Assembly: GCF_900172265.1 (NCBI RefSeq)
Contig: NZ_FWFK01000008.1
Coordinates: forward strand, 1 to 64,000
DNA length: 64,000 nucleotides
Origin: Roseivivax jejudonensis
Lineage (GTDB): Bacteria > Pseudomonadota > Alphaproteobacteria > Rhodobacterales > Rhodobacteraceae
Direction of reading: 5' to 3'
Part shown: positions 5,916 to 40,296 of the stretch, piece by piece
Position numbering within the stretch: the stretch's first letter is position 1
Layout: every line of letters starts with the position of its first letter
The notes under the pieces: generated by a model
Database searches by the model: none
Told to the model about the DNA's origin: nothing
Seen by the model: the letters and a program-made list of their open reading frames with translations, nothing else
Position numbers and translations under genes: made by a program

Positions 5916-6930
5916 CCCGTTCCTGGAACTCGACGCCCTGACGCTGACCTACGGCGACACGATCGCGGTGGAGGCTCTGGACTTCCACATGGCCGCCGGA
6001 GAGCTGGTGGCGCTGCTGGGCCCCTCGGGCTGCGGCAAGACCACGACGATGCGGGCCATCGCGGGGCTGATGCGACCGGCCGCGGGCCACATCCGCCTCG
6101 ACGGGCGGGACATCACCCGCGTGGCGCCGAACCGGCGCGGCGTCGGGCTGGTGTTTCAGTCCTACGCGCTCTTTCCGCACCTGTCGGTCTACGAGAACGT
6201 GGCCTTCGGCCTGCGCATCGCGCGCATCCGTGCCGAGGAACTGGAGCGGCGTACCCACGCGGCGCTGGGCGCCGTCGGCCTGACCGACTTCGCCGGGCGC
6301 GCCCCGGCCGAGCTGTCGGGCGGTCAGCAGCAACGTGTGGCGCTGGCGCGGTCCATCGTCATGGAGCCGAAGCTCCTGCTGCTGGACGAGCCCTTGTCCA
6401 ACCTCGACGCGCGCCTGCGGCTGGAGATGCGCACAGAACTTGCGCGGCTGCAACGCGAGTTCGGCATCGCCATGCTCTACGTGACCCACGACCAGGCCGA
6501 GGCGCTCGCGCTGGCCGACCGCATCATCGTGATGAACGACGGCAAGGTGGAGCAGGTGGGCACGCCCGAGGATATCTATGACCGCCCGACATCGGTCTTC
6601 GTGGCCGATTTCGTGGGCTTCGAGAACACGTTCCGGGTGGAGCGCGGAGCGTTGTCGGGAGCAAACGGGCCGGTCGATGCAGGCTTTGCGGTGACCGAGG
6701 GCGCGCGCGGTCTCGCCTGGCGACCGCAGGACGTGACACTCGGGCAGGGACCGCATCGCGGGCGGATCGAGGGCGCGTCGTATCTGGGTCAAAGCGTCGA
6801 ATACCTGATGTCCTCGCCGCTGGGGCCGATAAAGGCGGAGCGCCCGGCCCACGAGAAGCGTCACGCGACCGGCACCGAGGTCACCTTCGACCTGCCGCAG
6901 GCCCGCGCGGTGGAGCTGGCGCGTGGCTGA
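5908..6930 (+). CDS. ABC transporter ATP-binding protein (PotA/MalK-type)
   Basis: 340 residues. Walker A is GPSGCGKTT, the Q-loop is in VFQSYALFPH, the signature is LSGGQQQRVALARS, Walker B is LLLLDEPLSNLD, and the H-loop is VTHDQAEAL. A C-terminal TOBE-like domain follows (from about residue 240). It powers the importer encoded by 3217-5915. The ATG lies inside the end of the permease gene and the stop overlaps the nucleoside hydrolase start, so translation is tightly coupled. Confidence 0.93.
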   Translation: MSDPFLELDALTLTYGDTIAVEALDFHMAAGELVALLGPSGCGKTTTMRAIAGLMRPAAGHIRLDGRDITRVAPNRRGVGLVFQSYALFPHLSVYENVAFGLRIARIRAEELERRTHAALGAVGLTDFAGRAPAELSGGQQQRVALARSIVMEPKLLLLDEPLSNLDARLRLEMRTELARLQREFGIAMLYVTHDQAEALALADRIIVMNDGKVEQVGTPEDIYDRPTSVFVADFVGFENTFRVERGALSGANGPVDAGFAVTEGARGLAWRPQDVTLGQGPHRGRIEGASYLGQSVEYLMSSPLGPIKAERPAHEKRHATGTEVTFDLPQARAVELARG

Positions 6931-7852
6931 GGGCACGCTCTGGGTCGATACCGACATGGGATTCGACGACCTCGCGGCGCTCTGTCTGCTGGACGCGGCG
7001 GGGATGCCGGTCGGTGGCGTTTCTCTGGTCGCCGGCAACGTGGCTCTGGAACAGGTGCGTCGCAATGCGCACGGGGCCCGCGCCGCCTTCGGGTGGCGCT
7101 GGCCGGTCCACGACGGCGCGGCGGCACCCTTGGCGGGCCGCACCGAGACCGCGGTGGCCATCCTCGGCTCGATGGGCATGCGGAGCGCGGGCAGGCACCT
7201 GCCGACGGTCGAGAGCACGGCATCGCCCGTCTCGGCGACGGAGGCGATCGCGAGCTGGATCGGCGAGGGTGGTCGAAGGATCCTCGCGCTCGGGCCTCTG
7301 ACCAATCTTGCGCATCTGGTGGAGGCATACCCGGTGGCTGCGGAGCGGGTCGAGATCGTCTGGATGGGCGGCTCGGCGGGGCCGGGCAACCACACCGCCG
7401 CTGCGGAGTTCAACGCCTTCGCCGATCCCGAGGCACTGGCGCGGCTGATCGCGTGCGGCGTGTCGTTGTCGATGGTCGGGCTGGATGTCTGCCGGCAGGT
7501 GCAGGTGTCGCACGCCGACGCCGTGCGGATGCGCGGGAACGGACCGCGCGCGGAGCTGCTCGCGGACCTGCTGGAGGGCTATGTGAACATCGCCGGGACC
7601 GGGCGGATGGCGCTCTATGATCCGGTCGCGGCAGCGTTCTGTGTGGCACACGACTGTGTGAAGTTCGCGCCGGCGCGGCTTGATGTCGAGCTCAATGGCA
7701 CCCTGACGCGGGGCATGACGGTGATCGAGTGGCGCGCGCATCGGGCCGCGCCGAACGCGCGGATCGCGACCCAAGCCGACGCGTCGCGGATCCGCGATCT
7801 GTTCCGGCGCGGGTTCGATGCGGCGATCAAGGCGGAAGGAGTGCGCCCATGA
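6923..7852 (+). CDS. Inosine/uridine-preferring nucleoside hydrolase
   Basis: A 309-residue cytoplasmic enzyme that splits ribonucleosides into ribose and a free base. The N-terminal calcium-binding signature is DTDMGFDD. Further family segments are LGPLTNLA, WMGGS and EFNAFADPEA. The start is GTG 6923, overlapping the ATPase stop by eight bases, and the stop overlaps the adenine deaminase start by four. The context suggests it processes the nucleoside brought in by the ABC system, supplying adenine to the next enzyme. The exact base preference is not visible from the sequence. Confidence 0.9.
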   Translation: MAEGTLWVDTDMGFDDLAALCLLDAAGMPVGGVSLVAGNVALEQVRRNAHGARAAFGWRWPVHDGAAAPLAGRTETAVAILGSMGMRSAGRHLPTVESTASPVSATEAIASWIGEGGRRILALGPLTNLAHLVEAYPVAAERVEIVWMGGSAGPGNHTAAAEFNAFADPEALARLIACGVSLSMVGLDVCRQVQVSHADAVRMRGNGPRAELLADLLEGYVNIAGTGRMALYDPVAAAFCVAHDCVKFAPARLDVELNGTLTRGMTVIEWRAHRAAPNARIATQADASRIRDLFRRGFDAAIKAEGVRP

Positions 7853-9668: not shown

Positions 9669-10355
9669 TCAGCCCGTCGTCTCCTCGAACCGATACCCGA
9701 CCCCTGGCTCGTTCAGTAGCCAACGTGGTCTGGCGGGATCATCTTCGATTTTCTTTCGCAGCGCCCGGACCGTTACTCGTAGGTATTCGATGCTCTCGGT
9801 GTGAGCGGGTCCCCAGATTTCACGCAGGAGATGGGTATGGGTCAGGACTTTTCCGGAATGACCTGTGAGTTCGGCCAGAAGCGCGAACTCTTTCGGTGTC
9901 AGTTTCACAGGCGTGCCGGACTTCAGAACCGCATGGCCGTCGAGGTCGATTTCAACCGGGCCAACCGTGAGCCGCCGCCTTCGTCCGTGTTCCTTGTCTG
10001 AACGGCGAAGGCAACTTCTTATCCGGGCCAGCAACTCATCGCTGTCGAATGGTTTCGTGACGTAGTCGTCGGCACCCAAATCGAGTGCCGCAACCTTTTC
10101 GGTTGGCGCCTCACGCGCGGTCAGCACGATAACGGGCACGTCGCGGGATACGAAGGACGGGATCAGCTCCAGCCCGTCCCGGTCCGGTAGCCCCAGATCG
10201 AGAAGAACGAGCCGTGGGCTCGCGCGTTCAATCGCCGAAATCGCCTCAGCGGCGTTGGCCGCCTCGACCACCGAATATCCTCCACGCTCTGCGGAGACCC
10301 GGAGTAGTCGACGGATTGCCAACTCGTCATCGACGATCAGGATGTGGTCGGTCAC
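9669..10355 (-). CDS. kdpE: Response regulator KdpE
   Basis: 228 residues. The receiver domain has the acidic pair (ILIVDDE), the phospho-acceptor Asp in LVLLDLGLPDRDG, the switch Thr in VIVLTAR and the Lys in YVTKPF. An OmpR/PhoB-type winged helix follows (LTPKEFALLAELTGHSGKVLTH; YLRVTVRALRKKIE). The sequence is KdpE-like, so the ancestral role was control of the high-affinity K+ ATPase. The GTG start overlaps the kdpD stop (GTGA). The partner kinase is truncated and no kdpFABC genes are present here, so this regulator may be orphaned. Confidence 0.88.
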   Translation of the reverse strand: MTDHILIVDDELAIRRLLRVSAERGGYSVVEAANAAEAISAIERASPRLVLLDLGLPDRDGLELIPSFVSRDVPVIVLTAREAPTEKVAALDLGADDYVTKPFDSDELLARIRSCLRRSDKEHGRRRRLTVGPVEIDLDGHAVLKSGTPVKLTPKEFALLAELTGHSGKVLTHTHLLREIWGPAHTESIEYLRVTVRALRKKIEDDPARPRWLLNEPGVGYRFEETTG

Positions 10356-28847: not shown

Positions 28848-29147
28848 TCACAATCCCAAGCGTGTCGGATGCGTCTTCGCATTCGCGTCCATGTCTCCCA
28901 TCGTGTCACGGGGAACGTTCCGTTCGAGCACAGCCAACACGGACGACACGGTCGAGACCGTGTAGGGGACGAGAAAGGTCACCGCGACCTTTGCCCATTG
29001 AGGGGCATCCATTGTTCCGTGCCAGATGGCGTCGCCGTGGTTGATGACCGCGATGACGTGCCCGACGATGAGCGCCATGCCCGCGGCCCGCCGCACCACC
29101 CGCGGGGCGGTGGCGAGGCGGAGAATCTGGCGTAAAGATCTCCTCAT
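28848..29147 (-). CDS. NrtS-like small membrane protein
   Basis: A 99-residue protein with two hydrophobic segments. The core VIAVINHGDAIW...WAKVAVTFLVPYTVSTVSSV matches the nitrate/nitrite transporter NrtS family as I know it. The start overlaps the maleylacetate reductase stop (ATGA), so both are translated from one message. Nitrate uptake has no obvious link to ring cleavage; the protein may move another small anion here. No dedicated nitrate gene lies nearby. Confidence 0.65.
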   Translation of the reverse strand: MRRSLRQILRLATAPRVVRRAAGMALIVGHVIAVINHGDAIWHGTMDAPQWAKVAVTFLVPYTVSTVSSVLAVLERNVPRDTMGDMDANAKTHPTRLGL

Positions 29148-30205
29148 GCGTCCGGGCGCGCGCCCTGCCACGCGGCGCGAAAGACAGACCGCAGACCCTC
29201 GGCATCGACATCGCGCGGGTTGTAGTACGGCTTGTCGAGCGCGATCTCCACGGCGCGTTCGATGCCGTCCTCTGGCATGCCCAGATCGCGCAACGCTGTC
29301 GGCGCACCCGCGGCGCTTGAGATGTCGAAGAAGGCGGCGGCAGGAGTTTGCGATCCGGTGGCACGCCGGAGTGCTTCCATCACGTCGGGGACCGCGGGGG
29401 CATTGTAGGCAAGGGCGTGCGGCAGCATGACCGTATGGGTTTCTGCGTGCGGTAGATCGAACGAGCCGCCGAGGACGTGGCAGAGCTTGTGATGCAAAGC
29501 CACTCCGCCGGACCCTAGACATACTGCGCAGAGCCAAGCACCGTAGAGCGCGTCGGATCGTGCGCCCGTGTCCTGCGGCGTGTCGCGCACACGCTCCAGC
29601 GCCTCGGTCAGTTTCGCAATGCCGTCCTCCGCCATCAGCGACAGGACCGGGTTCGCTTCCTCGGCATAGAGCGCCTCGACCGCGTGGGCGAGCGCGTTCA
29701 TGCCCGACGTCACCGTCATGAGCGGCGGCAGCGTCAGCGTATGCGTCACGTCGTATATCACGGTTTCCGGAAGGACCTTCAGCGTCGTCTGCGTCGTCTT
29801 CTTGCCGCCGTCGGTCTGACCGATGATCGGTGTCATCTCGGAGCCCGCGTAGGAGGTCGGCAGCACGATCTGTGGCGCGTCGGTGCGCAGGGCGATGGCC
29901 TTGCCAAGACCAATCGTCGAGCCGCCGCCGATGGACACGACACAATCGGCGCCGCTGTCGCGGTACTGTATCACTGCCGCGTCCGTCACCTCCACGGGCG
30001 TGTGCATCGCCGCACCTGGAAACAGCCCAGCCGAGATCGGACCCAGCAGGTCGCACAGATAGCGGCCCAAGGCGGCTTGGGCTTCGGTCGTGAGGACCAG
30101 CGCCTTCCTGCATGCCAGTCTTTCGACCTCCGCGGGCAGCAGCGACGTAGTGCCCGTCCCGAACAGGACCCGAGCGGGCAGACCGGTATAGGTGAAATTC
30201 TGCAT
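29144..30205 (-). CDS. Maleylacetate reductase
   Basis: A 353-residue iron-containing-alcohol-dehydrogenase-fold enzyme, matching ClcE/TfdF size, that reduces maleylacetate to 3-oxoadipate. Landmarks are VSIGGGSTIGLGKAIALRT, PTSYAGSEMTPIIGQT, NALAHAVEALYA and HHKLCHVLGGSFDLPHAETHTVMLPH, in which the His residues form the metal/substrate site. It is transcribed leftward from the divergent region at 30206-30416. Its presence shows that the pathway passes through maleylacetate, as with chlorocatechol or hydroxyquinol. Confidence 0.92.
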   Translation of the reverse strand: MQNFTYTGLPARVLFGTGTTSLLPAEVERLACRKALVLTTEAQAALGRYLCDLLGPISAGLFPGAAMHTPVEVTDAAVIQYRDSGADCVVSIGGGSTIGLGKAIALRTDAPQIVLPTSYAGSEMTPIIGQTDGGKKTTQTTLKVLPETVIYDVTHTLTLPPLMTVTSGMNALAHAVEALYAEEANPVLSLMAEDGIAKLTEALERVRDTPQDTGARSDALYGAWLCAVCLGSGGVALHHKLCHVLGGSFDLPHAETHTVMLPHALAYNAPAVPDVMEALRRATGSQTPAAAFFDISSAAGAPTALRDLGMPEDGIERAVEIALDKPYYNPRDVDAEGLRSVFRAAWQGARPDA

Positions 30206-30416: not shown

Positions 30417-31349
30417 ATGGCCATCGGTCAGATACCCCGTATGTCCCCCAAGACGATCGGGGACCTCGACGTGTTCAGCCTGCTCGATACTGCCGGGCCG
30501 ACGCGACCGCCTGGCGACATGCTTAAGGACGTGCCCGAGGACTGGATGAGCCGGCACGGCGGGTGGCTCGCCCCCGACTACGTCGACCCAAGCACCGGCA
30601 CGATGCGCATGGCTTACCAATCTTTCCTGATCCGTGGGCCCGCGACGATCCTCGTCGACTGCGCCGTCGGGGAGGACGGAGAGTTTCCAGCCCGGCCTGA
30701 CTGGAATCACGCGAAGTCGGACTGGCTCAACCATCTGGGGCAGGCCGGCTGCGCGCCCGAAGACGTCGACATCGTCTTTCTCACGCATCTTCATCCGGAC
30801 CATACCGGATGGCTGACACGGAAGACCCCGGAAGGCTGGACGCCGACCTTTCCGAAGGCGCGCCACGTGACGAGCGATACGGAGCTCGAATTCTGGCTCT
30901 CTCGACACGAGGAGTTCGCCTTCATGGGACGTTCGGTCGACGACAGCATCAAACCGGTCCACGCGGCCGGCCTGTTCGACACGATCTCTCCCGGGCGGAG
31001 CCTTGCCCCGGGTCTCGGCGTGGTCGATCTAGCCGGACACTCCCCCGGCATGATCGGCCTCGAACACACAAAGCATGATCGCACCGTCGCGGCATTCAAT
31101 GCCGATCTAATGCACCACCCCCTTCAGATGGCCGAACCGGAATGCGCAACGATTTTTTGTCACGACCCCGAGGCTGCCGTGGCGACCCGAAAGTCGGCGC
31201 TGGCACGCTATGCGCGGGACGAGACGCTGATGTTCTGCAACCACTTTCCCGGCGAATGTGCCGGCTACGCCGTCGCTGAGGACGAGGGATACCGCTTCGT
31301 TCCCGAGGCCGGCGCAGCGAGAGGCGGACATGCTCAAGACGTTGCCTGA
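30417..31349 (+). CDS. MBL-fold metallohydrolase
   Basis: 310 residues, no signal peptide. The metallo-beta-lactamase motif is FLTHLHPDHTGW. Later metal positions are His in LAGHSPGM, Asp in AAFNADLMHHP and His in CNHFPGE. ATG 30417 follows GGAAGGAGG. Its stop overlaps the muconate cycloisomerase gene by 19 bases. As no classical dienelactone hydrolase was found in this module, it could open a lactone intermediate. Lactonase activity is common in this fold, but this assignment is inference. Confidence 0.82.
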   Translation: MAIGQIPRMSPKTIGDLDVFSLLDTAGPTRPPGDMLKDVPEDWMSRHGGWLAPDYVDPSTGTMRMAYQSFLIRGPATILVDCAVGEDGEFPARPDWNHAKSDWLNHLGQAGCAPEDVDIVFLTHLHPDHTGWLTRKTPEGWTPTFPKARHVTSDTELEFWLSRHEEFAFMGRSVDDSIKPVHAAGLFDTISPGRSLAPGLGVVDLAGHSPGMIGLEHTKHDRTVAAFNADLMHHPLQMAEPECATIFCHDPEAAVATRKSALARYARDETLMFCNHFPGECAGYAVAEDEGYRFVPEAGAARGGHAQDVA

Positions 31350-32472
31350 GGGCGAGACGGCGCGCATCGACCGGGTCGAGACGATCCTTGTCGATCTGCC
31401 GTTCCGGCGATTGCAGAGGTTCGCCCGTCTCGACGCGACTGGCCAGACCTCGCTGCTGGTCCGCGTGACCGACAGCGACGGTGCCGAGGGGATCGGCGAG
31501 GCGATCGTGCCCTGCGGTCCTTGGTGGTCAGGCGACAGCGTCGAGACCATGAAAATCATGATCGACGCCTATTTCGCACCGGCGATGATCGGCTGGCCGG
31601 TTATGTCGGTCGAGGCGATGCTCGAGGGTCTCGACCGCGTGGCGCGCGGCAACGCCTTTGCCAAGGCCGGTCTGGAGATGGCCTGCCTAGACCTAATCGG
31701 CCGGCGGCTCGATGTGCCGGTTCACGTCCTGCTCGGCGGTGCGCGGCGGACAGTCTGCCCGGTGGCCTGGCCGCTGGCCAGCGGCGACCCCGGTAAGGAT
31801 CGCGCCGAGATCGACGAGATGCTCGAGACCGGACGCGCCTCTGCCTTCAAGGTGAAGGCCGGGGCAGGGGATCTCGACGCTGACATCGCCCGTCTGACGG
31901 ACCTTGCAGCGGCGCTCGACGGGCGCGCCGGGCTGAGGGTCGACCCCAACGAATCCTGGTCCGAGATCGAGGCGATCCGCGCGCTGCCAAAATTCGCCGA
32001 ACTCGGCGTGGAACTTGTCGAGCAGCCCGTGCCGCGCGAACGGCTGGCGTGCATGAGCCGGATTGCGGCCCGCTCCACAATCCCCGTGATGATCGACGAA
32101 GGGGCCTGGAGCGAGACCGACATGATCGAGGCGGTCACAACGAGCGCCGCGCATGTCGTGTCGCTGAAGATCATGAAGTCCGGCGGCATCCGGGCGGCAC
32201 GACGCATGGCCGACATCGCCCATGCCGGGGGTATCATGCTCTACATGGGCACGTTCCTTGAGACCGGGATTGGCACCGCCGCAGGATTGCAACTGGCAGC
32301 GAGCCTGCCCGGTCTGCCGTTCGGCGGAGAAATATTCGGCCCGATGTTGCAGCGGGACGACCTGCTCGTCTCGCCGATCCGCTACGAGGACGGCGCAGCC
32401 CATCTGCCGGAGGGACCGGGGCTCGGCATCGAGATCGACGAAGACAAGTTGCGCCGGTATGCGCGCGATTGA
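31330..32472 (+). CDS. Muconate cycloisomerase (muconate lactonizing enzyme family)
   Basis: A 380-residue enolase-superfamily enzyme. The catalytic Lys pair region is AFKVKAG. Metal ligands appear in LRVDPNESW (Asp), ELVEQPVP (Glu) and VMIDEGAW (Asp), and the distal Lys in VSLKIMKSGGI. The active-site lid region (VETILVDLPFRRLQRFA) resembles CatB/TcbD. It cyclises cis,cis-muconate or a substituted muconate to a lactone. The sequence alone does not separate CatB from chloromuconate types. Confidence 0.88.
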   Translation: MLKTLPEGETARIDRVETILVDLPFRRLQRFARLDATGQTSLLVRVTDSDGAEGIGEAIVPCGPWWSGDSVETMKIMIDAYFAPAMIGWPVMSVEAMLEGLDRVARGNAFAKAGLEMACLDLIGRRLDVPVHVLLGGARRTVCPVAWPLASGDPGKDRAEIDEMLETGRASAFKVKAGAGDLDADIARLTDLAAALDGRAGLRVDPNESWSEIEAIRALPKFAELGVELVEQPVPRERLACMSRIAARSTIPVMIDEGAWSETDMIEAVTTSAAHVVSLKIMKSGGIRAARRMADIAHAGGIMLYMGTFLETGIGTAAGLQLAASLPGLPFGGEIFGPMLQRDDLLVSPIRYEDGAAHLPEGPGLGIEIDEDKLRRYARD

Positions 32473-32508: not shown

Positions 32509-32919
32509 ATGTCCGCAAAAAATCTGGCACGCGCCGCTGCCATTCTGTTCGGCCTCTGGGGCGTCCTGCATGTCGCGGCGGCATGGCAGGTTGCCAACCT
32601 TGCCGGAACACTTGAGGCCGGTGCTATCCGGGGCCGCGTCTCCCAAGTCGCATTCTTTCTCTTGGAGTTTGCACTTCTGTCTATGGCGTGTGTGCCTTCG
32701 ATCTGGCGCATCAGTCCCGGCGGGTACCTCGTCGCGGCCGCAGCGACGACAGCGGCTGACATCCCGTTTGTCTTGTTCCTGGTAATTCCGGGCCATGTCG
32801 GCCTGCCGACTAGCGTGATCGGTCCGTCCATCTGGATCGCGGCCGTCGTCCTTGGAGCACTTGCATTGCGACGCAGCCCTAACACCGGCGTCTACGTGAC
32901 AGGCGCAAGACGCGGGTGA
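32509..32919 (+). CDS. Hypothetical four-helix membrane protein
   Basis: A 136-residue hydrophobic protein with about four membrane segments, for example ARAAAILFGLWGVLHVAAAW and VIGPSIWIAAVVLGALAL. ATG 32509 lies 36 bases after the cycloisomerase stop, with an AGGAG site, so it is probably the last gene of that operon. No family recognised. Confidence 0.65.
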   Translation: MSAKNLARAAAILFGLWGVLHVAAAWQVANLAGTLEAGAIRGRVSQVAFFLLEFALLSMACVPSIWRISPGGYLVAAAATTAADIPFVLFLVIPGHVGLPTSVIGPSIWIAAVVLGALALRRSPNTGVYVTGARRG

Positions 32920-33059: not shown

Positions 33060-33470
33060 ATGGAGGTTGAGCACGTGCCTGGGCACGTGCGTATGTCCGA
33101 GATAGAGATCATCACCGATGGCGGCCGCCGGCGCCGCTGGCCGGTCACGGAGAAGCTGCGGATCGTCGAGGAGACGTTGGAGGATGGCGCCAGCTTCTCT
33201 GTCGTCGCGCGCCGGAATGGCGTGGCTCCGAACCTGCTGTTTCGTTGGCGTCGTCTGATGCTGGACGGAGGAGCGGTGGCCGTGTCCGAGGATGACGATG
33301 TGACCAGCAACCGTGCCGTGCGGCAGATGGAGGATCGTATCCGCGAGCTCGAGCGCCAGCTCGGCCGCAAGACGCTCGAGGTCGAGATCCTCAAGGAGGC
33401 GCTGGACAAGTCGCGCTCAAAAAAACGGACGTGGCTCGCGCAGTCGCAGCCGAAGGGCGGTTCCCGGTGA
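33060..33470 (+). CDS. IS3-family (IS2-type) transposase OrfA
   Basis: A 136-residue helix-turn-helix protein (RRRRWPVTEKLRIVEETL...FSVVARRNGVAPNLLFRWRRL) with a C-terminal leucine-zipper-like helix (MEDRIRELERQLGRKTLEVEILKEALDK). This is OrfA of IS2-like elements and appears intact. The start could also be ATG 33093. The companion OrfB is broken, so the element cannot move by itself. Confidence 0.85.
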   Translation: MEVEHVPGHVRMSEIEIITDGGRRRRWPVTEKLRIVEETLEDGASFSVVARRNGVAPNLLFRWRRLMLDGGAVAVSEDDDVTSNRAVRQMEDRIRELERQLGRKTLEVEILKEALDKSRSKKRTWLAQSQPKGGSR

Positions 33471-34377: not shown

Positions 34378-36012
34378 TCACCGCTGTTCATCGAGAGCCT
34401 CATAGCGAAGACGGAGCGTATCGAGTTCCAGATCGTGCTCGGCGAGAAACGCCGCGGTGTCTGCATCGACCTCCGGCCGCATGATCGACGAGAAACGTTG
34501 GACCAGGCTCGCCATCGAGCACACGACGATCAGTGTGATGAGTTGGTCTTCATCAAAATGCTTGAGCACCGGATCCACGAACCGATGTGGCGTCGCAAGC
34601 GGCGCCTGTGCGGACAGCCACGCGAAGACTAGCGCAGCGCGCTCTGGCTCTGTGAAAAGTTCAATAGCCTGGGAGTCTCTGATTGGCGCCATCGTCGCGC
34701 GAACCCGAAGAAGGCTGTTCTTCGTCCGGCCGGCGGCCACATACGCCAGATGACCTTCGGCGGCCGCGAGAACATGATGTCCTTTGGCGATAGCAGACAC
34801 TCTGGCCATGAGGTGCTTCAGCTCGGAGGTGATGCCATTTGTGTCCTCGCCCGCCATGATCGTCGCGTAGAGGTGGATGTGGTTCGCGCGCAGCGGTTGC
34901 GGCCAGCTGCGCAGCCAAGCGGGTTCCGCGCCAAGCATGTTCTTGGCGTATGCTGCGGGTCCTCCGGCCTCAACGACTGAAGCAGCGTATTTGCGAACCA
35001 TGTCTTCCTTCGTCGGTCCGCCCTCGGAGATGGGTTCGATCGGCAAGCCTTGTCGAGTGTCCACACCATGACGACCGGCAGAGAGCCCGGTTCCGTCTTG
35101 AGCTTGCCGTGCCCAGTCCGCTTCGACCTTCACGCCTGTCAGGTCATTGAACACGTTCAAAAACCCAAAGGCGGCGGCGATCATAGTGGCACTGGCGAAA
35201 CACTCGTTGAACTCGCCGAACGGCATCCGCGCCTCTGACCAAGTGTGACGCACGGTCGCGACGGCTTCATCTGTGACAGAGTTCGTGGATGATCGGGCGA
35301 CGAGATCGGCTAGGGCGAGTTCGAACGGGCCGAAGGGATTGTTCTCTCCTGCTTCTCCTCGTTTCGCCGCTTCGAGCTGGTTGACCGCATCAATGCTGTT
35401 TTCGCCGCCTGTTGTGGCGGAATGGACCTGGCAATAGCTGCAACCGTGCGCGTTGGACGTCGCGTATCCAAGTGCGGACATCAGCGGCATTCCGAGTGCA
35501 TCGCGTCCTGTCCCGATGGCCGCGCCGTTGTGATCGTATACGAAAGCTTTGTAGGCTTCAGGCCAGCGATGAAGGTAGGCGAAAGTATTGGGCCAGAACC
35601 CGAAAAAGTCCTTGTACATGGAGAGGATCGGCCACTGTTCCGGGTCTTTGTCGCGCGTGCCATCGCTGGATGAGATTTCGTTCCGCAGCAGCAAGTCTTC
35701 TGCACCGTGACGGAGGTCTTCATCCGAAACGTCGTCCAGACCCAAAGAGCCGACTGACTGGCCCGCAAGGTCTGTGAGCCTCCCGGTCATGTGCAGCAGG
35801 GCGAGGTCCTCTGACCCGTTGACGTGCAAGCCGCCAATAAAGATTTGCGGCACCGTTGTGGAGCCGGAGAAGTAGACGCTGGCATTTGCGTCCCGATCGG
35901 ACGCGATCACATCGTGCTGCGTGTAGCCCAAGCCGGCTTCGGCAAGCGTCTCCTTGGCTTGCGAGCAGAACCGACAATTCGGCTTCGTGAAGATGTCAAT
36001 GTTGCCTGCCAT
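34378..36012 (-). CDS. Glutaredoxin fused to tandem AhpD/CMD-like domains
   Basis: 544 residues. Residues 1-80 are a glutaredoxin (IDIFTKPNCRFCSQAKETL, Cys13/Cys16, cis-Pro loop TVPQIFIGG, then GSEDL). After a linker, residues about 135-330 carry an AhpD/peroxidase-related fold with GCSYCQVHS (Cys191/Cys194/His197). A second similar module near 420-520 has lost both Cys (KGHHVLAAAEGHLAY). ATG 36012 follows TTTGGAGG. AhpD-like domains need a dithiol donor, so the fused glutaredoxin could supply electrons. Cytoplasmic. It diverges from the LysR gene at 36365. The substrate is unknown; a peroxide or an electrophilic ring-cleavage product is possible. Confidence 0.8.
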   Translation of the reverse strand: MAGNIDIFTKPNCRFCSQAKETLAEAGLGYTQHDVIASDRDANASVYFSGSTTVPQIFIGGLHVNGSEDLALLHMTGRLTDLAGQSVGSLGLDDVSDEDLRHGAEDLLLRNEISSSDGTRDKDPEQWPILSMYKDFFGFWPNTFAYLHRWPEAYKAFVYDHNGAAIGTGRDALGMPLMSALGYATSNAHGCSYCQVHSATTGGENSIDAVNQLEAAKRGEAGENNPFGPFELALADLVARSSTNSVTDEAVATVRHTWSEARMPFGEFNECFASATMIAAAFGFLNVFNDLTGVKVEADWARQAQDGTGLSAGRHGVDTRQGLPIEPISEGGPTKEDMVRKYAASVVEAGGPAAYAKNMLGAEPAWLRSWPQPLRANHIHLYATIMAGEDTNGITSELKHLMARVSAIAKGHHVLAAAEGHLAYVAAGRTKNSLLRVRATMAPIRDSQAIELFTEPERAALVFAWLSAQAPLATPHRFVDPVLKHFDEDQLITLIVVCSMASLVQRFSSIMRPEVDADTAAFLAEHDLELDTLRLRYEALDEQR

Positions 36013-36364
36013 GTGAACCTCCAAATGGTGTATACTTCGCAGCGACGTTCGCAAGTAGCGATTGTGGCAACCAGTGATCCGCACTGCTGAACAAGTCTGA
36101 GCTTTGCCATCCGGCGAAGACATCGCCGTGTCGCCGAAACGGCCGGCACCACAATGTGCAAGCTAAGTCTTTGAGGTAGTGGCTCTATCGCTGCTGGCGG
36201 AACAGAGCGTTCCGCTTACGCAGCAAGGGCAGGTGTCGGCCCTCAAGACGTTTCGAGGCCAAGACGATGCCGGGGTTCACGACGGCTTTGCAATATCTGC
36301 CCGACCCGATTGCCGTGCCATGCTACTTGCGGCAAGCTAGCGCCCAACCTGATGCACAGGGCGC
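36013..36364. other. Divergent intergenic region
   Basis: 352 bases between the glutaredoxin-fusion gene and the LysR gene. No ORF worth calling, and no ATAC-N7-GTAT match was seen. Both promoters must lie here. A GTATAC palindrome at 36025-36030 is too short to interpret. Confidence 0.45.
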
Positions 36365-37312
36365 ATGAAAATGGAGTTTCGACAATTAAGGTATTTCGTC
36401 GCTGTTGCCGAAGAAGGCAATATTGGACGTGCGGCGCTGCGCCTCAACGTCTCTCAGCCCCCAATCAGCCGACAGATTCAAGCTCTCGAGCATGAGCTCG
36501 GCGCCACGCTGCTCTACAGGACGCCAAAAGGTGTTGAGCTGACTGAGGCGGGGCGCGTCTTTTTCGAAGATGCGCAGAAGGTTCTCGCGCATAGCAAGAC
36601 CGCCATGGATCGCACCCGCGCGGCGCACCGCGGGGAACTCGGACAACTAGATGTTGGGTTCTTCGGATCGACAATCTATCAGGCCGTGCCGCAAGCGCTG
36701 CGAGCGTTTCGACGGGATCGACCGGAAATCGAAGTCTCACTTACGCGTATGGGTAAGGCGGAACAGGTCCACGCGTTGCGCGAAGGACGGATTCATGTGG
36801 GGTTCGGCCGATATTTTAATGATACAGACGGATTGGTGGTCGAGGCCATATCGGAAGAGCGTCTCTACGCCGTCCTGCCGGAGGACAATGTTGCGCCGGG
36901 ACAGACCCAGACCGAATTTAGCGAAATCGCCCGATTGCCTGTGGTCCTATATCCGTCCGGCGACCGGCCCAGCTTCGCCGACGAGATAATTTCGCTTCTC
37001 CGTGCGGCCAAGGTGTCGTTCGAAGTGGCGAACGTGGCCTCCGATTCGTCGTCCGCGCTGGCCATGGTGGCCTGCGGTTCCTGCTGCACCATCGTTCCCG
37101 AAGCGATCGCCGCGCTCAGCTACCCGTCCGTGCGGTATCTGCCGATTGCTGATTGCGACACACGGATCCCGGCGGCGTGCATGTACCTCGAGCGCGACCG
37201 GGCGCCGGTCCTCGAAGAGTTTCTTCGCGTTCTGCGGGCTATTTGGGTTGGCCAACAGAGTATGAGTACGGATCGCGATCCGACGAACTCCTCATCGCGA
37301 AGCAGTCGTTGA
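36365..37312 (+). CDS. LysR-family regulator (CatR/ClcR-like)
   Basis: 315 residues. The N-terminal HTH begins MEFRQLRYFVAVAEEGNIGRAALRLNVSQPPISRQIQALE. Its PPISRQI and ALEHELGATLL segments are those of the CatR/ClcR/BenM group. The effector domain follows (LGQLDVGFFGSTIYQAVPQALRAFR). Members of this group bind ATAC-N7-GTAT-type sites and respond to muconates. The gene is close to the dioxygenase at 37655. With the repeated sites it is the natural regulator of the island. Confidence 0.88.
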   Translation: MKMEFRQLRYFVAVAEEGNIGRAALRLNVSQPPISRQIQALEHELGATLLYRTPKGVELTEAGRVFFEDAQKVLAHSKTAMDRTRAAHRGELGQLDVGFFGSTIYQAVPQALRAFRRDRPEIEVSLTRMGKAEQVHALREGRIHVGFGRYFNDTDGLVVEAISEERLYAVLPEDNVAPGQTQTEFSEIARLPVVLYPSGDRPSFADEIISLLRAAKVSFEVANVASDSSSALAMVACGSCCTIVPEAIAALSYPSVRYLPIADCDTRIPAACMYLERDRAPVLEEFLRVLRAIWVGQQSMSTDRDPTNSSSRSSR

Positions 37313-37543
37313 TACTTGCGATACGTTCCCGCTGACGTCGCTTCGTTTCTGGTTTTCCGCCGTGGCTGGACGCAGACCAGAGCGGCGACGTCTTGGCCAT
37401 CGGCTCGGCCGGAACGGTGTTTCGAAGATCAGAAAAGGTGGCGATAGCTTTTGGCCGCTTGGACACGGGAGAGTTGCGGCGCTGACGCACCATCGTGTCG
37501 GTTAGGTCTGTTCTGATCACCGGTCGAACGTCCACCTCGGTTG
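37313..37543. other. Intergenic region before the intradiol dioxygenase
   Basis: No gene seen. Open frames here are short and arginine/serine-rich. The promoter of the dioxygenase operon and the operator at 37544-37558 lie at its right edge. Confidence 0.4.
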
Positions 37544-37558
37544 ATACCAAAGAAGTAT
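37544..37558. promoter_or_regulatory. ATAC-N7-GTAT operator before the intradiol dioxygenase
   Basis: ATACCAAAGAAGTAT is a perfect ATAC-N7-GTAT inverted repeat, extended to GATAC...GTATC, about 97 bases before the dioxygenase ATG. The same motif stands about 80 bases before the second TRAP operon. Confidence 0.65.
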
Positions 37559-37654
37559 CGGGGCGACCGGTTCAAAGTATTGGCGCGCAACTCGCGCGTA
37601 GCCGTAGTCTGCTCGACATTACATCCAACCGAAGCCGCGAAAGGGAGGATCGCA

Positions 37655-38428
37655 ATGTCGGATCGGGTCAAGACCATCACCATGGACATCGTCGAAGCCG
37701 TGCGTGACGTGATGCGTAAGCACGACGTCACGTTCGCGGAGTATCGCGCGGGCGTCGGCCATCTCATCAAGACGCAGGAGGCGAAAGAGATACCGCTCCT
37801 CCTCGACGTCTTCCTTAATTCCACGGTTGTTGAAATCGAAAACAGGCAGCGCGATGGCTCGAAGGCTGCGATTCAGGGCCCCTACTTCCGCGAGGGCGCG
37901 CCGCGGGTGAATGACAGCCTTGCCATACGGCCGGAGGACGAAGATCAACCGCGCATGGTCATGCGTGGGCGCGTTACGGATCTTGGCGGTTCACCGGTCG
38001 CCGACGCGGTCATCGACGTCTGGCACTCAACACCTGAGGGCCGATACTCCGGCGTTCACGGCAACATCCCGATCGAGTACTACCGCGGGAAGATTACCAC
38101 GGACGAGAACGGACGGTACGAATGCCGCTCGATTTTGCCGGTCCCCTACCAGATCCCGAACCAGGGTCCGACCGGGGAGCTTCTTGAAAAACACATGGGC
38201 GGGCATTCCTGGCGTCCGGCGCACATCCATTACTGGGTTCATGCCGAGGGCATGCGCGACCTGATCAGCCAGGCCTATTTCGAGGGCGACAAGTACATCG
38301 AGGATGACAGCTGCAACGGCGGCGGCACCGAGTTCATGGTGCCAGAAGCCTATGAGGATGGCGTCCGGGTCATGGAGGTCGACTTCCGCCTCGACCCGGC
38401 TGCGGTCCGGGCCGAAGCCGCCGAATAA
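37655..38428 (+). CDS. Intradiol ring-cleavage dioxygenase (catechol/chlorocatechol type)
   Basis: A 257-residue non-haem Fe(III) enzyme. Ligand regions are visible: Tyr in EGRYSGVHGNIP, Tyr in GRYECRSILP, and the two His in WRPAHIHYWVHAEG. An N-terminal helical dimerisation segment precedes them. The length is nearer chlorocatechol 1,2-dioxygenases (about 255-260) than catechol types (about 300). Hydroxyquinol 1,2-dioxygenase is an alternative, because maleylacetate reductase is present. ATG 37655 follows GGGAGG. It makes a cis,cis-muconate for the cycloisomerase at 31330. Confidence 0.88.
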   Translation: MSDRVKTITMDIVEAVRDVMRKHDVTFAEYRAGVGHLIKTQEAKEIPLLLDVFLNSTVVEIENRQRDGSKAAIQGPYFREGAPRVNDSLAIRPEDEDQPRMVMRGRVTDLGGSPVADAVIDVWHSTPEGRYSGVHGNIPIEYYRGKITTDENGRYECRSILPVPYQIPNQGPTGELLEKHMGGHSWRPAHIHYWVHAEGMRDLISQAYFEGDKYIEDDSCNGGGTEFMVPEAYEDGVRVMEVDFRLDPAAVRAEAAE

Positions 38429-38517: not shown

Positions 38518-40296
38518 TTGCAACAGCAACGCGAAACCGACGTCCTGGTAATAGGAACAGGCCCCGCCGGAGCCGCTGCGGCCGCGCTTCTCGCAGAACA
38601 GGGCGTGGCCTGCATGGTGGTCAACAAATACGGTTGGACAGCCCCGACGCCCCGCGCGCACATCACGAACCAACGCACGATGGAAGTTCTGCGCGATCTC
38701 GGCGTCGAAGACGAGGTCATAGCGAAAGCTACCCCCAACGATCTCATGGGCGAAAACACGATTTGCGCCTCATTGGCCGGAGAGGAATTCGGCAGGATCC
38801 GCACCTGGGGCACGGACGTGCGCCGCCGCGCCGATTATGACGCCTGTTCGCCCACGTCCATGTGCGACATACCGCAGAACCTGCTTGAGCCGATTTTGAT
38901 CAACAAGGCCGCGCTCGGTGGCGCCAAGGTCAGATTCGACACCGAGTATCTCGGGCACGAACAGGACGCGTCTGGCGTTACGACGCAGTTGCGCGACCGT
39001 CTCACCGGGACAGACTACGACGTGCGTTCGAAGTATCTTATCGGTGCCGATGGAGCCAATTCGCAGGTCGTCTCGGACCTCGAACTGCCGCTCGAAGGGG
39101 AGATGGGTAAATCCGGATCCATAAACATGGTGTTCGAGGCGGACCTCACGAAATACGTCGCTCATCGCCCGAGCGTGCTCTACTGGGTAATCCAGCCCGG
39201 CAGCGACATCGGCGGTCTCGGAATCGGCGTCGTGCGCATGGTGCGGCCCTGGACCAAATGGCTTGCCATCTGGGGATACGACGTCGAAAAAGGCGCGCCC
39301 GAGATCAACGAGTCGTTCGCGCGCAAAATCGTTCACAACCTTATCGGTGACGATACGGTGCCGGTGAAGATCGAGGCGACTTCGACCTGGACCGTTAACG
39401 ACATGTATGCCACGCGCTTGCATGATCGCCGGGTCTTTGCTGCTGGCGACGCGATCCACCGCCATCCGCCGACGAACGGGCTGGGGTCGAACACCTCGAT
39501 CCAGGACAGCTTCAATCTGTGCTGGAAGCTCGCACATGTGCTGAAGGGCAGGGCGGACCCGTCGCTTCTTGACACATACACGACGGAGCGAGCTCCAGTG
39601 GCACGGCAGATCGTGACGCGCGCAAACAAATCGCTCGGAGATTTCCCGCCGATCGCGATGGCCCTCGGTTTGCCGCAGGCCGGTTCGGTCGAGGAGATGT
39701 ACGCCAACATGGCAGCGCGGAAGAACGAAACGCCCGAGGCCGCGACGCAGCGTGCGGCGCTGCGCGAGGCAATCGCCGGAACCGACTACGTGTATAACGC
39801 TCACGGCGTCGAGATGAACCAGCGGTACGAGGGGCCCGCTATCGTTACCGACGGCTCCGCGCCAGAGGTTTTCGCGGATGCCGAACTCTATCACTTGGCC
39901 TCCTCGCGCCCCGGTGCCCCGGTTCCGCATTGCTGGCTTTGGCGGGCCGACGGAAGCCGGGTCTCGACCAAGGATCTTTGTGGGCGCGGCCGGTTTGCCA
40001 TACTCACCGGGATCGGCGGTGACGGCTGGAAAGACTGCGCGCGCGAAGTTGCCGAGCGCCACGGAGTCGATATCGACGTGTGTCTGATCGGCCCCGGACA
40101 GGAGTTTGAGGACCACTATGGTGAGTTCGCCATGCTGCGCGGGACAACCGATAGCGGTGCGATCCTCGTGCGTCCGGATTTTCATGTCGGTTTCCGCGCG
40201 GTATGCTTCGATGCCGACGCCGTTTCGCGCTTTCACGACGCGATGGCGTCGATCCTTGGTGTCAAGCAGATCGACTCCACGGTGGCGGCGCAATGA
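38518..40296 (+). CDS. FAD-dependent phenol hydroxylase (TfdB/PheA-like)
   Basis: 592 residues, about the length of 2,4-dichlorophenol 6-monooxygenase. The FAD motif is VLVIGTGPAGAAAAALLAEQG, the DG motif is YLIGADGANSQV, and the GD motif is VFAAGDAIHRHPPTNGLGSNTSIQD. A C-terminal thioredoxin-like domain follows (from about residue 430). The start is TTG 38518 after GGGAGGAAG. It hydroxylates a phenol to a catechol for the preceding dioxygenase. Substituent specificity cannot be read from the sequence. Confidence 0.88.
   Translation: MQQQRETDVLVIGTGPAGAAAAALLAEQGVACMVVNKYGWTAPTPRAHITNQRTMEVLRDLGVEDEVIAKATPNDLMGENTICASLAGEEFGRIRTWGTDVRRRADYDACSPTSMCDIPQNLLEPILINKAALGGAKVRFDTEYLGHEQDASGVTTQLRDRLTGTDYDVRSKYLIGADGANSQVVSDLELPLEGEMGKSGSINMVFEADLTKYVAHRPSVLYWVIQPGSDIGGLGIGVVRMVRPWTKWLAIWGYDVEKGAPEINESFARKIVHNLIGDDTVPVKIEATSTWTVNDMYATRLHDRRVFAAGDAIHRHPPTNGLGSNTSIQDSFNLCWKLAHVLKGRADPSLLDTYTTERAPVARQIVTRANKSLGDFPPIAMALGLPQAGSVEEMYANMAARKNETPEAATQRAALREAIAGTDYVYNAHGVEMNQRYEGPAIVTDGSAPEVFADAELYHLASSRPGAPVPHCWLWRADGSRVSTKDLCGRGRFAILTGIGGDGWKDCAREVAERHGVDIDVCLIGPGQEFEDHYGEFAMLRGTTDSGAILVRPDFHVGFRAVCFDADAVSRFHDAMASILGVKQIDSTVAAQ

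Follow-up and report, generated by a model that had tools for sequence, protein, structure and literature searches.

Analysis of a 64,000-nucleotide stretch of the Roseivivax jejudonensis genome (contig NZ_FWFK01000008.1; hereafter the window) showed that it encodes a protein of 544 amino acids, in which an N-terminal glutaredoxin (Grx) is followed by two tandem CMD modules. This fusion, which is a new architecture within known superfamilies, is conserved among distant relatives, and it combines a Grx redox pair, a Bmp8-like dithiol motif in module 1, and an invariant His/His/Glu set in module 2. The reading that we favor, with a probability only slightly above even, is that the fusion is a single-chain, glutathione-driven CMD dithiol reductase, in which electrons would pass from glutathione (GSH) through Grx to C191/C194 of module 1 and from there to a small organic acceptor, while module 2 would serve as a built-in partner.

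The open reading frame of the fusion covers positions 34378-36012, stop codon included, with the start codon at 36010-36012 and the stop codon at 34378-34380. These coordinates had been given correctly in the first-pass annotation, which did not state the strand; it is the minus strand, as for all features of this gene given below. The frame itself extends upstream to 36123 (581 amino acids), but the start of the 544-residue protein agrees with that of its relatives in the alignment, and a Shine-Dalgarno-like GGAGG was read in the sequence at 36018-36022, 5 nt upstream of the ATG. The translation placed the three motifs named in that annotation exactly where it had put them, which is CRFC at residues 13-16 (35965-35976), CSYCQVH at residues 191-197 (35422-35442), and HHVLAAAEGH at residues 412-421.

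The N-terminal domain (residues 4-82; 35767-36003) can be assigned with certainty from its sequence as a glutaredoxin. It matched PF00462 with an E value of 4.8e-13 and 49.5 bits, against a curated cut-off of 22.9, and both Grx hallmarks were found, which are the CRFC redox pair and the TVP (cis-Pro) loop (TVPQ, residues 53-56). The NCBIfam matches of this part were of glutaredoxin, thioredoxin, and Spx types. With glutaredoxin 3 (GrxC) it shares the CxxC, the TVP loop, and a strong profile match, while it differs from this protein in being fused and in scoring 61.9 bits with the GRX_bact equivalog TIGR02181 (Grx3), below the 90-bit cut-off. The PDB matches of the domain were glutaredoxins, the best of them being the Grx part of the hybrid Prx5-Grx protein HI0572 from Haemophilus (PDB 1nm3), in which a thiol enzyme is likewise covalently joined to a glutaredoxin, and which has GSH-dependent peroxidase activity. 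In HI0572 the Grx is C-terminal and its partner is a peroxiredoxin, whereas in the fusion it is N-terminal and its partners are all-helical CMD modules. A Pfam search at E<=1 found no peroxiredoxin domain in the fusion protein, and the partner modules were helical in the structural model.

The coverage by Pfam and NCBIfam was poor beyond the Grx domain, because the matches there were few and weak. The Pfam CMD family (PF02627) gave nothing at E<=1 in the window protein, and NCBIfam gave one faint match on the CMD part, to the peroxidase-related TIGR01926 (residues 125-201, E 0.11). Among 16 family members, three matched TIGR01926 (best 7.4e-5) and three weakly matched PF02627 (best 7e-4). The CMD modules were recognized through sequence and fold comparison with the PDB. 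Module 1 was cut for analysis as residues 92-327 (35032-35739), and its profile, built from 17 copies, matched the peroxidase-related, AhpD-type protein 2prr first (1e-5, 66 positions) and the debrominase Bmp8 second (1.7e-4), the latter over 179 positions, which is nearly the whole length of Bmp8. The GC-x-YC-xx-H stretch of module 1 was in register with Bmp8 in this profile alignment. For module 2 (residues 328-544; 34381-35031), which has no Cys pair, the top PDB sequence match was also Bmp8 (1.5e-6 by phmmer with the module alone; residues 394-525 in the whole-protein search). A direct hhalign comparison of module 1 with module 2, from which locus L015 was excluded, did not detect significant homology (probability 1.6%), and hence the kinship of the two modules is based on the fact that each of them matches Bmp8.

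The AlphaFold2 model of the whole chain, obtained with a 16-member alignment, had a pLDDT of 88.4 and a pTM of 0.92, and in it the helical modules come after a thioredoxin-like domain. When this model was compared to the PDB using Foldseek, Bmp8 was found first (TM-score by target 0.76, E 1.4e-3, probability 1.00), and glutaredoxins next. Module 1 modeled separately was poorer than the whole chain (pLDDT 71.8, pTM 0.65), which would fit its packing on the remaining chain, or may just mean that it is a harder target. The first Foldseek match of this model was Bmp8 6ohi (probability 1.00, TM-score by target 0.64, E 5.4e-3), and three Bmp8 chains were followed by 2prr and AhpD-like proteins. Despite the probability of 1.00, no Foldseek match of either model reached an E value of 0.001 or below, and therefore the placement draws on both sequence and fold.

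The search for this domain combination across genomes bore out the fusion of Grx with tandem CMD modules described in the first-pass annotation, with 21 copies in 20 genomes of Alphaproteobacteria, Cyanobacteria, and Bacillota. The domain order was identical in all 21 copies, and the identity among the aligned relatives was 36-53%. Sixteen of these loci came from a contig scan with alignment A1, two are in the own genome of the window, and the others are L034, L036, and L039; loci L005 and L014, which encode an identical protein, were counted once. A contig scan with the single protein as the query found no relative. The family is rare and patchy. At E<=1e-20 the fusion was found in two of 101 near genomes, including the own genome, and in none of the eight other genomes of its genus in this set. 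It was present in 2/385 genomes of the class set, 2/386 of the cyanobacterial set, and 3/159 genomes from the family of one Bacillota member, while the phylum set gave full-length matches in 3/398 genomes and a fourth match that was a single module. These sets overlap, and the figures are approximate, because the candidates scored per genome were three in the class set and four in the cyanobacterial and phylum sets.

No two-module relative devoid of Grx was found at E<=1e-12 in 386 + 398 genomes, with up to four candidates scored per genome, and orthologs that are split and unlinked, named in advance as a finding that would refute the first-pass reading, were absent among the copies found. At L018 (8001-9679) the Grx and CMD parts are adjacent in different reading frames, with the shift around 8230, so that the gene may be naturally split or its sequence may contain an error. 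Its Grx part was read separately, and for this reason the conservation count covers 20 Grx regions; L018 as a whole is absent from alignments A2 and A3. The L015 protein ends at 428 amino acids near a contig end, its C-terminal part being matched on another contig, and it was excluded from alignments A3 and A5. Among plasmid records there was no full-length copy, as none of the 132 matching records covered 80% of the query, and the 40 of these 132 matches that were listed corresponded to the Grx part. The view that no characterized enzyme has this domain order agreed with what was found in the PDB, NCBIfam, and the open-licence PMC literature, where the matches listed included no paper presenting a Grx-CMD/AhpD fusion. 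An AhpD is linked to allicin resistance in PMC7119367.

The presence of the Grx cysteines was compared to the thiol metabolism of the hosts. The CxxC was found in 16 of 21 copies (15 of the 20 aligned, and L018 read separately), and it was missing from four Bacillota copies and from the paralog L002. A strong match to GSH synthetase (5e-68 to 3e-76) was obtained in 16 genomes, each of which encodes a CxxC copy and none of which matched BshC (bacillithiol), whereas the CxxC was missing in all four BshC-positive genomes, which are all Bacillota and have strong BshC matches. The four Bacillota genomes gave only weak ATP-grasp matches (best 1.6e-6 to 3.8e-11) above the Pfam cut-off; these are no evidence for GSH, because the control B. 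subtilis matches PF02955 as well. A separate glutaredoxin-like stretch was detected at E<=1e-10 in 12/12 non-Bacillota genomes and 0/3 Bacillota genomes. The Bacillota copies (L012, L017, L019, and L034) keep the CMD dithiol C191/C194, which suggests that its chemistry can do without the Grx pair in some hosts. Additionally, all four have a cysteine at residue 179, at the -12 position where AhpD has its catalytic Glu, which is found in 0/17 copies elsewhere. The best tree implies two losses of the CxxC, one in the Bacillota clade and one in the paralog, as do the bootstrap trees, but a single change is all that the well-supported branches require by themselves. Because the Bacillota copies form one clade, the correlation between GSH and CxxC represents one or two events rather than five.

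The paralog L002 is located about 9 kb beyond the end of the window (G000:C12:73172-74770; minus strand of L048, 7139-8791), and it is 36-37% identical to the window protein. It has lost together the Grx CxxC, C194, and C498, and it has kept H400, H412, and E419. Cys498 of the window protein (34519-34521) is present in 19 of the 20 copies covering that position, and it is Ser in the paralog. Such a joint loss is as would be expected, from the sequence comparison, of parts of one thiol chain. On the other hand, the paralog has lost the thiol chain but not the Grx fold or the His/His/Glu set, a hint that there may be an additional role outside redox chemistry. The neighbors of L002 are a GST, a DoxX relative, and patatin- and RND-like genes (by eye), together with a divergent LysR of the type usual for the family.

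According to the first-pass annotation, the fusion gene and the regulator of an aromatic island are divergent, and such a regulator is indeed encoded 352 bp away, as a LysR protein at 36365-37312 (plus strand). This LysR was identified using Pfam, and its best PDB match was 1ixc (9e-74), which we take to be the chlorocatechol regulator CbnR, so that it is probably of the chlorocatechol (CbnR) type. It is followed on the plus strand by an intradiol dioxygenase of chlorocatechol 1,2-dioxygenase type (37541-38428), which scored 396.6 bits with TIGR02465 (cut-off 359.25), and by an FAD aromatic-ring hydroxylase (38518-40296; PF01494 6.6e-122, PF21274). On the other side are a muconate or chloromuconate cycloisomerase (31258-32472, plus), which matched 3i4k (muconate) with 8e-85 and 4m0x (chloromuconate) with 2.9e-79, and a maleylacetate reductase (29144-30205, minus), which matched 3w5s with 1.3e-115 and 3hl0 with 6e-114; the latter scored best of all with 3jzd (5.8e-124), which carries only the name iron-containing alcohol dehydrogenase. 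FAD hydroxylases and LigAB are also found near the fusion gene. Judged by these gene assignments, the island is of the modified ortho-cleavage, chlorocatechol type. A hydroxyquinol pathway is disfavored by the TIGR02465 score and by the better match of the dioxygenase to 3th1 (6e-80) than to the hydroxyquinol dioxygenase 1tmx (3.5e-27).

Several other genes of the window were observed in this region. A transposase frame (HTH_Tnp_1; 33060-33470, plus) is located between the cycloisomerase gene and the fusion gene, a hint that mobile elements may have assembled the island. The segment 41373-42686 (plus) encodes a PcaC-like CMD protein, scoring below the PcaC cut-off, and, 3 bases on, an AhpC/TSA-family protein with a CPRC motif, which could be a second redox pair of the island. 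The 136-aa protein encoded at 32509-32919 (plus), which is of membrane type by eye and had no Pfam match, is 41% identical to the protein encoded by the gene that immediately follows the fusion in L020.

The neighborhoods of the other copies were different. When 15 window genes were compared to the other 20 loci, with flanks of about 8 kb on each side in 13 loci and shorter in seven, only two matches were obtained, L017 giving a distant FAD monooxygenase and L020 a MarR protein, which suggests that the island may say little about the core function of the family. A divergent LysR of another subfamily was found in nine of these loci (with a frame that is only partly open in L021), and a divergent TetR in the four Bacillota loci. 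The fusion adjoins a LigB dioxygenase in L016 and an apparent Rieske oxygenase in L039 (by eye; its NCBIfam match was far below the cut-off); the names RND, HlyD, patatin, and Rieske were all assigned by eye. A 157-aa protein, of membrane type by eye, is encoded downstream of the fusion in six loci (L021, at 9721-10194, and L007, L009, L011, L013, and L018), and neither Pfam (E<=0.01) nor NCBIfam (E<=1e-5) gave a match for its L021 representative. In L006 the fusion gene is closely followed by a frame resembling, by eye, a pyridine nucleotide-disulfide oxidoreductase (6205-7386, plus), which seems to miss the usual N-terminal part. A single-module, Bmp8-like CMD protein with a CLYCQAH motif (L004, G000:C16:384613-385194; 1.3e-27 to Bmp8) is encoded elsewhere in the own genome. 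Such single-module matches were found in four of 61 near genomes, which are the own genome and three others, and the CxYCxxH motif also occurs in proteins at L040, L043, L044, and L045.

To compare the active sites, the conservation of individual residues was counted over alignment positions occupied in 18 or more of the 21 rows, and 42 of these positions never vary. The invariant set includes C191, Y193, and H197 of module 1, each found in 21/21 copies, and H400, H412, and E419 of module 2, while C194 is present in 20/21 copies. With AhpD of the M. tuberculosis type, PA0269, and 2prr the fusion shares a CxxC on an AhpD-type helix pair, C191/C194 being the corresponding dithiol. The proton relay of AhpD is described in the matched passages of PMC3141380 as Glu118, Cys130, His132, Cys133, and His137, so that Glu stands 12 residues before the first Cys (-12) and His four residues after the second (+4). 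The Glu at -12 is missing from module 1 in all 21 copies (Ser179 in the window protein), and its His is located at +3 (H197) and not at +4, where residue 198 is S, M, A, I, or T. In the alignments Bmp8 also has no Glu at -12 and has its His at +3, while 2prr carries the AhpD-type residues. Hence, the pattern of module 1 is that of Bmp8, and the first-pass reading of the module as AhpD-like and hence a peroxidase is unsupported in the form given. A plain AhpD peroxidase is weakened by the missing proton relay. The electron donors would also differ, as AhpD receives electrons from a lipoyl protein, and the donor proposed for the fusion is GSH via the fused Grx.

The first-pass reading, in which the fusion would be a glutathione-dependent alkyl or lipid hydroperoxidase that passes electrons from GSH through Grx and the CMD dithiol to an organic hydroperoxide, is the best surviving alternative, and we consider it possible at a probability well short of even. 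It agrees with the AhpD-type protein 2prr being the best sequence match of module 1, with the matches of TIGR01926 to three of the 16 members, and with the description, in the passages of PMC3141380 that were matched, of the AhpD-like PA0269, which contains Cys-x-Tyr-Cys, as a weak H2O2 reductase. The presence of DoxX in four loci, and of patatin-like and RND-efflux-like genes in three loci each (by eye), would also suit membrane or lipid stress. The absence of the relay Glu from every copy and the shifted His argue against it.

Somewhat less probable, and proposed only tentatively, is a glutathione-driven reductive dehalogenase acting on halogenated aromatic or heteroaromatic compounds, in which a Bmp8-type Cys would remove the halogen, the CxYC disulfide would form, and Grx would re-reduce it in each turn. 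Bmp8 uses a Cys-based debromination mechanism. The debrominase (6ohi/6ohj) is nearest to the fusion in fold, and shares with it the CxYCxxH, the absence of Glu at -12, and a GFLNxxN stretch, although it is a single module without Grx, in contrast to the two CMD modules and Grx of the fusion. The location of the window copy in a chlorocatechol-type island, together with the kinship to Bmp8, makes reductive dehalogenation worth testing. However, single-module CxYCxxH proteins without known function also occur, which means that this kinship does not settle the substrate, and the chlorocatechol-pathway genes were unmatched in the flanks of the other copies.

The last module had been called degenerate, which is misleading. 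Its Cys pair is absent from all 21 copies, but the same 21 copies have His400 (34813-34815), His412 (34777-34779), and Glu419 (34756-34758) at active-site positions; His400 is 12 residues before and Glu419 seven residues after His412, so that they fall at AhpD positions -12, 0, and +7. His412 is opposite Cys82 of Bmp8 in the alignment, in place of the Cys, and the PDB entry 6ohj is titled as a C82A variant. In the model His412 precedes the helix 413-426 in the same way as Cys191 precedes the helix 192-200. A decayed second module was rejected, as the His/His/Glu set is invariant. This conservation is consistent with putative metal binding or acid-base chemistry in module 2, and it leads to another alternative, in which His400, His412, and Glu419 would form the main catalytic site, and the thiol modules would only regulate or protect it. 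The set is kept even in the paralog lacking the thiol chain and in the Bacillota copies without Grx cysteines, but C191, Y193, and H197 are just as invariant, and we regard this reading as unlikely. A chance or recent fusion without joint function, to which the patchy distribution and the two frames of L018 could point, is highly improbable and largely refuted by conservation, because the domain order is kept in relatives at 36-53% identity and because the cyanobacterial and phylum sets, at E<=1e-12 and with up to four candidates scored per genome, contained no Grx-free two-module relative.

In the favored reading of the fusion as a glutathione-driven CMD dithiol reductase, GSH would reduce the N-terminal Grx at C13/C16, which in turn would reduce the C191/C194 disulfide of module 1. 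Module 1, with Tyr193 and His197, would then apply Cys chemistry of the Bmp8/peroxidase-related CMD type to a small organic substrate, either an oxidant or an electrophile, and reduce it. Module 2, as a sister module without the Cys pair, would pack on module 1 as a built-in pseudo-subunit, and His400, His412, and Glu419 could line a second pocket, with a role in binding, acid-base, or metal chemistry. The window enzyme probably serves the chloroaromatic island, where its substrate could be a reactive halogenated, quinone, or peroxide by-product, and its expression may be regulated by the divergent LysR. A bolder version, to which we assign a low probability, is a GSH-powered reductive dehalogenase or electrophile reductase, in which Grx would recharge a Bmp8-type CxYC in cis beside the invariant two-His-one-Glu center, which may hold a metal, while the bacillithiol (BSH) hosts would have dropped the Grx thiols and gained Cys179 at -12.

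If the proposed electron path is true, CMD chemistry would be coupled in this family directly to glutathione, without lipoyl or thioredoxin partners, and the fusion would offer an enzyme of compact form for reduction, and possibly dehalogenation, under aerobic conditions. The contrast between the GSH hosts, in which the CxxC is kept, and the BSH hosts, in which it is lost, is a natural one that makes the role of Grx directly testable, and the invariant His/His/Glu set in a dead-looking module is a clear target.
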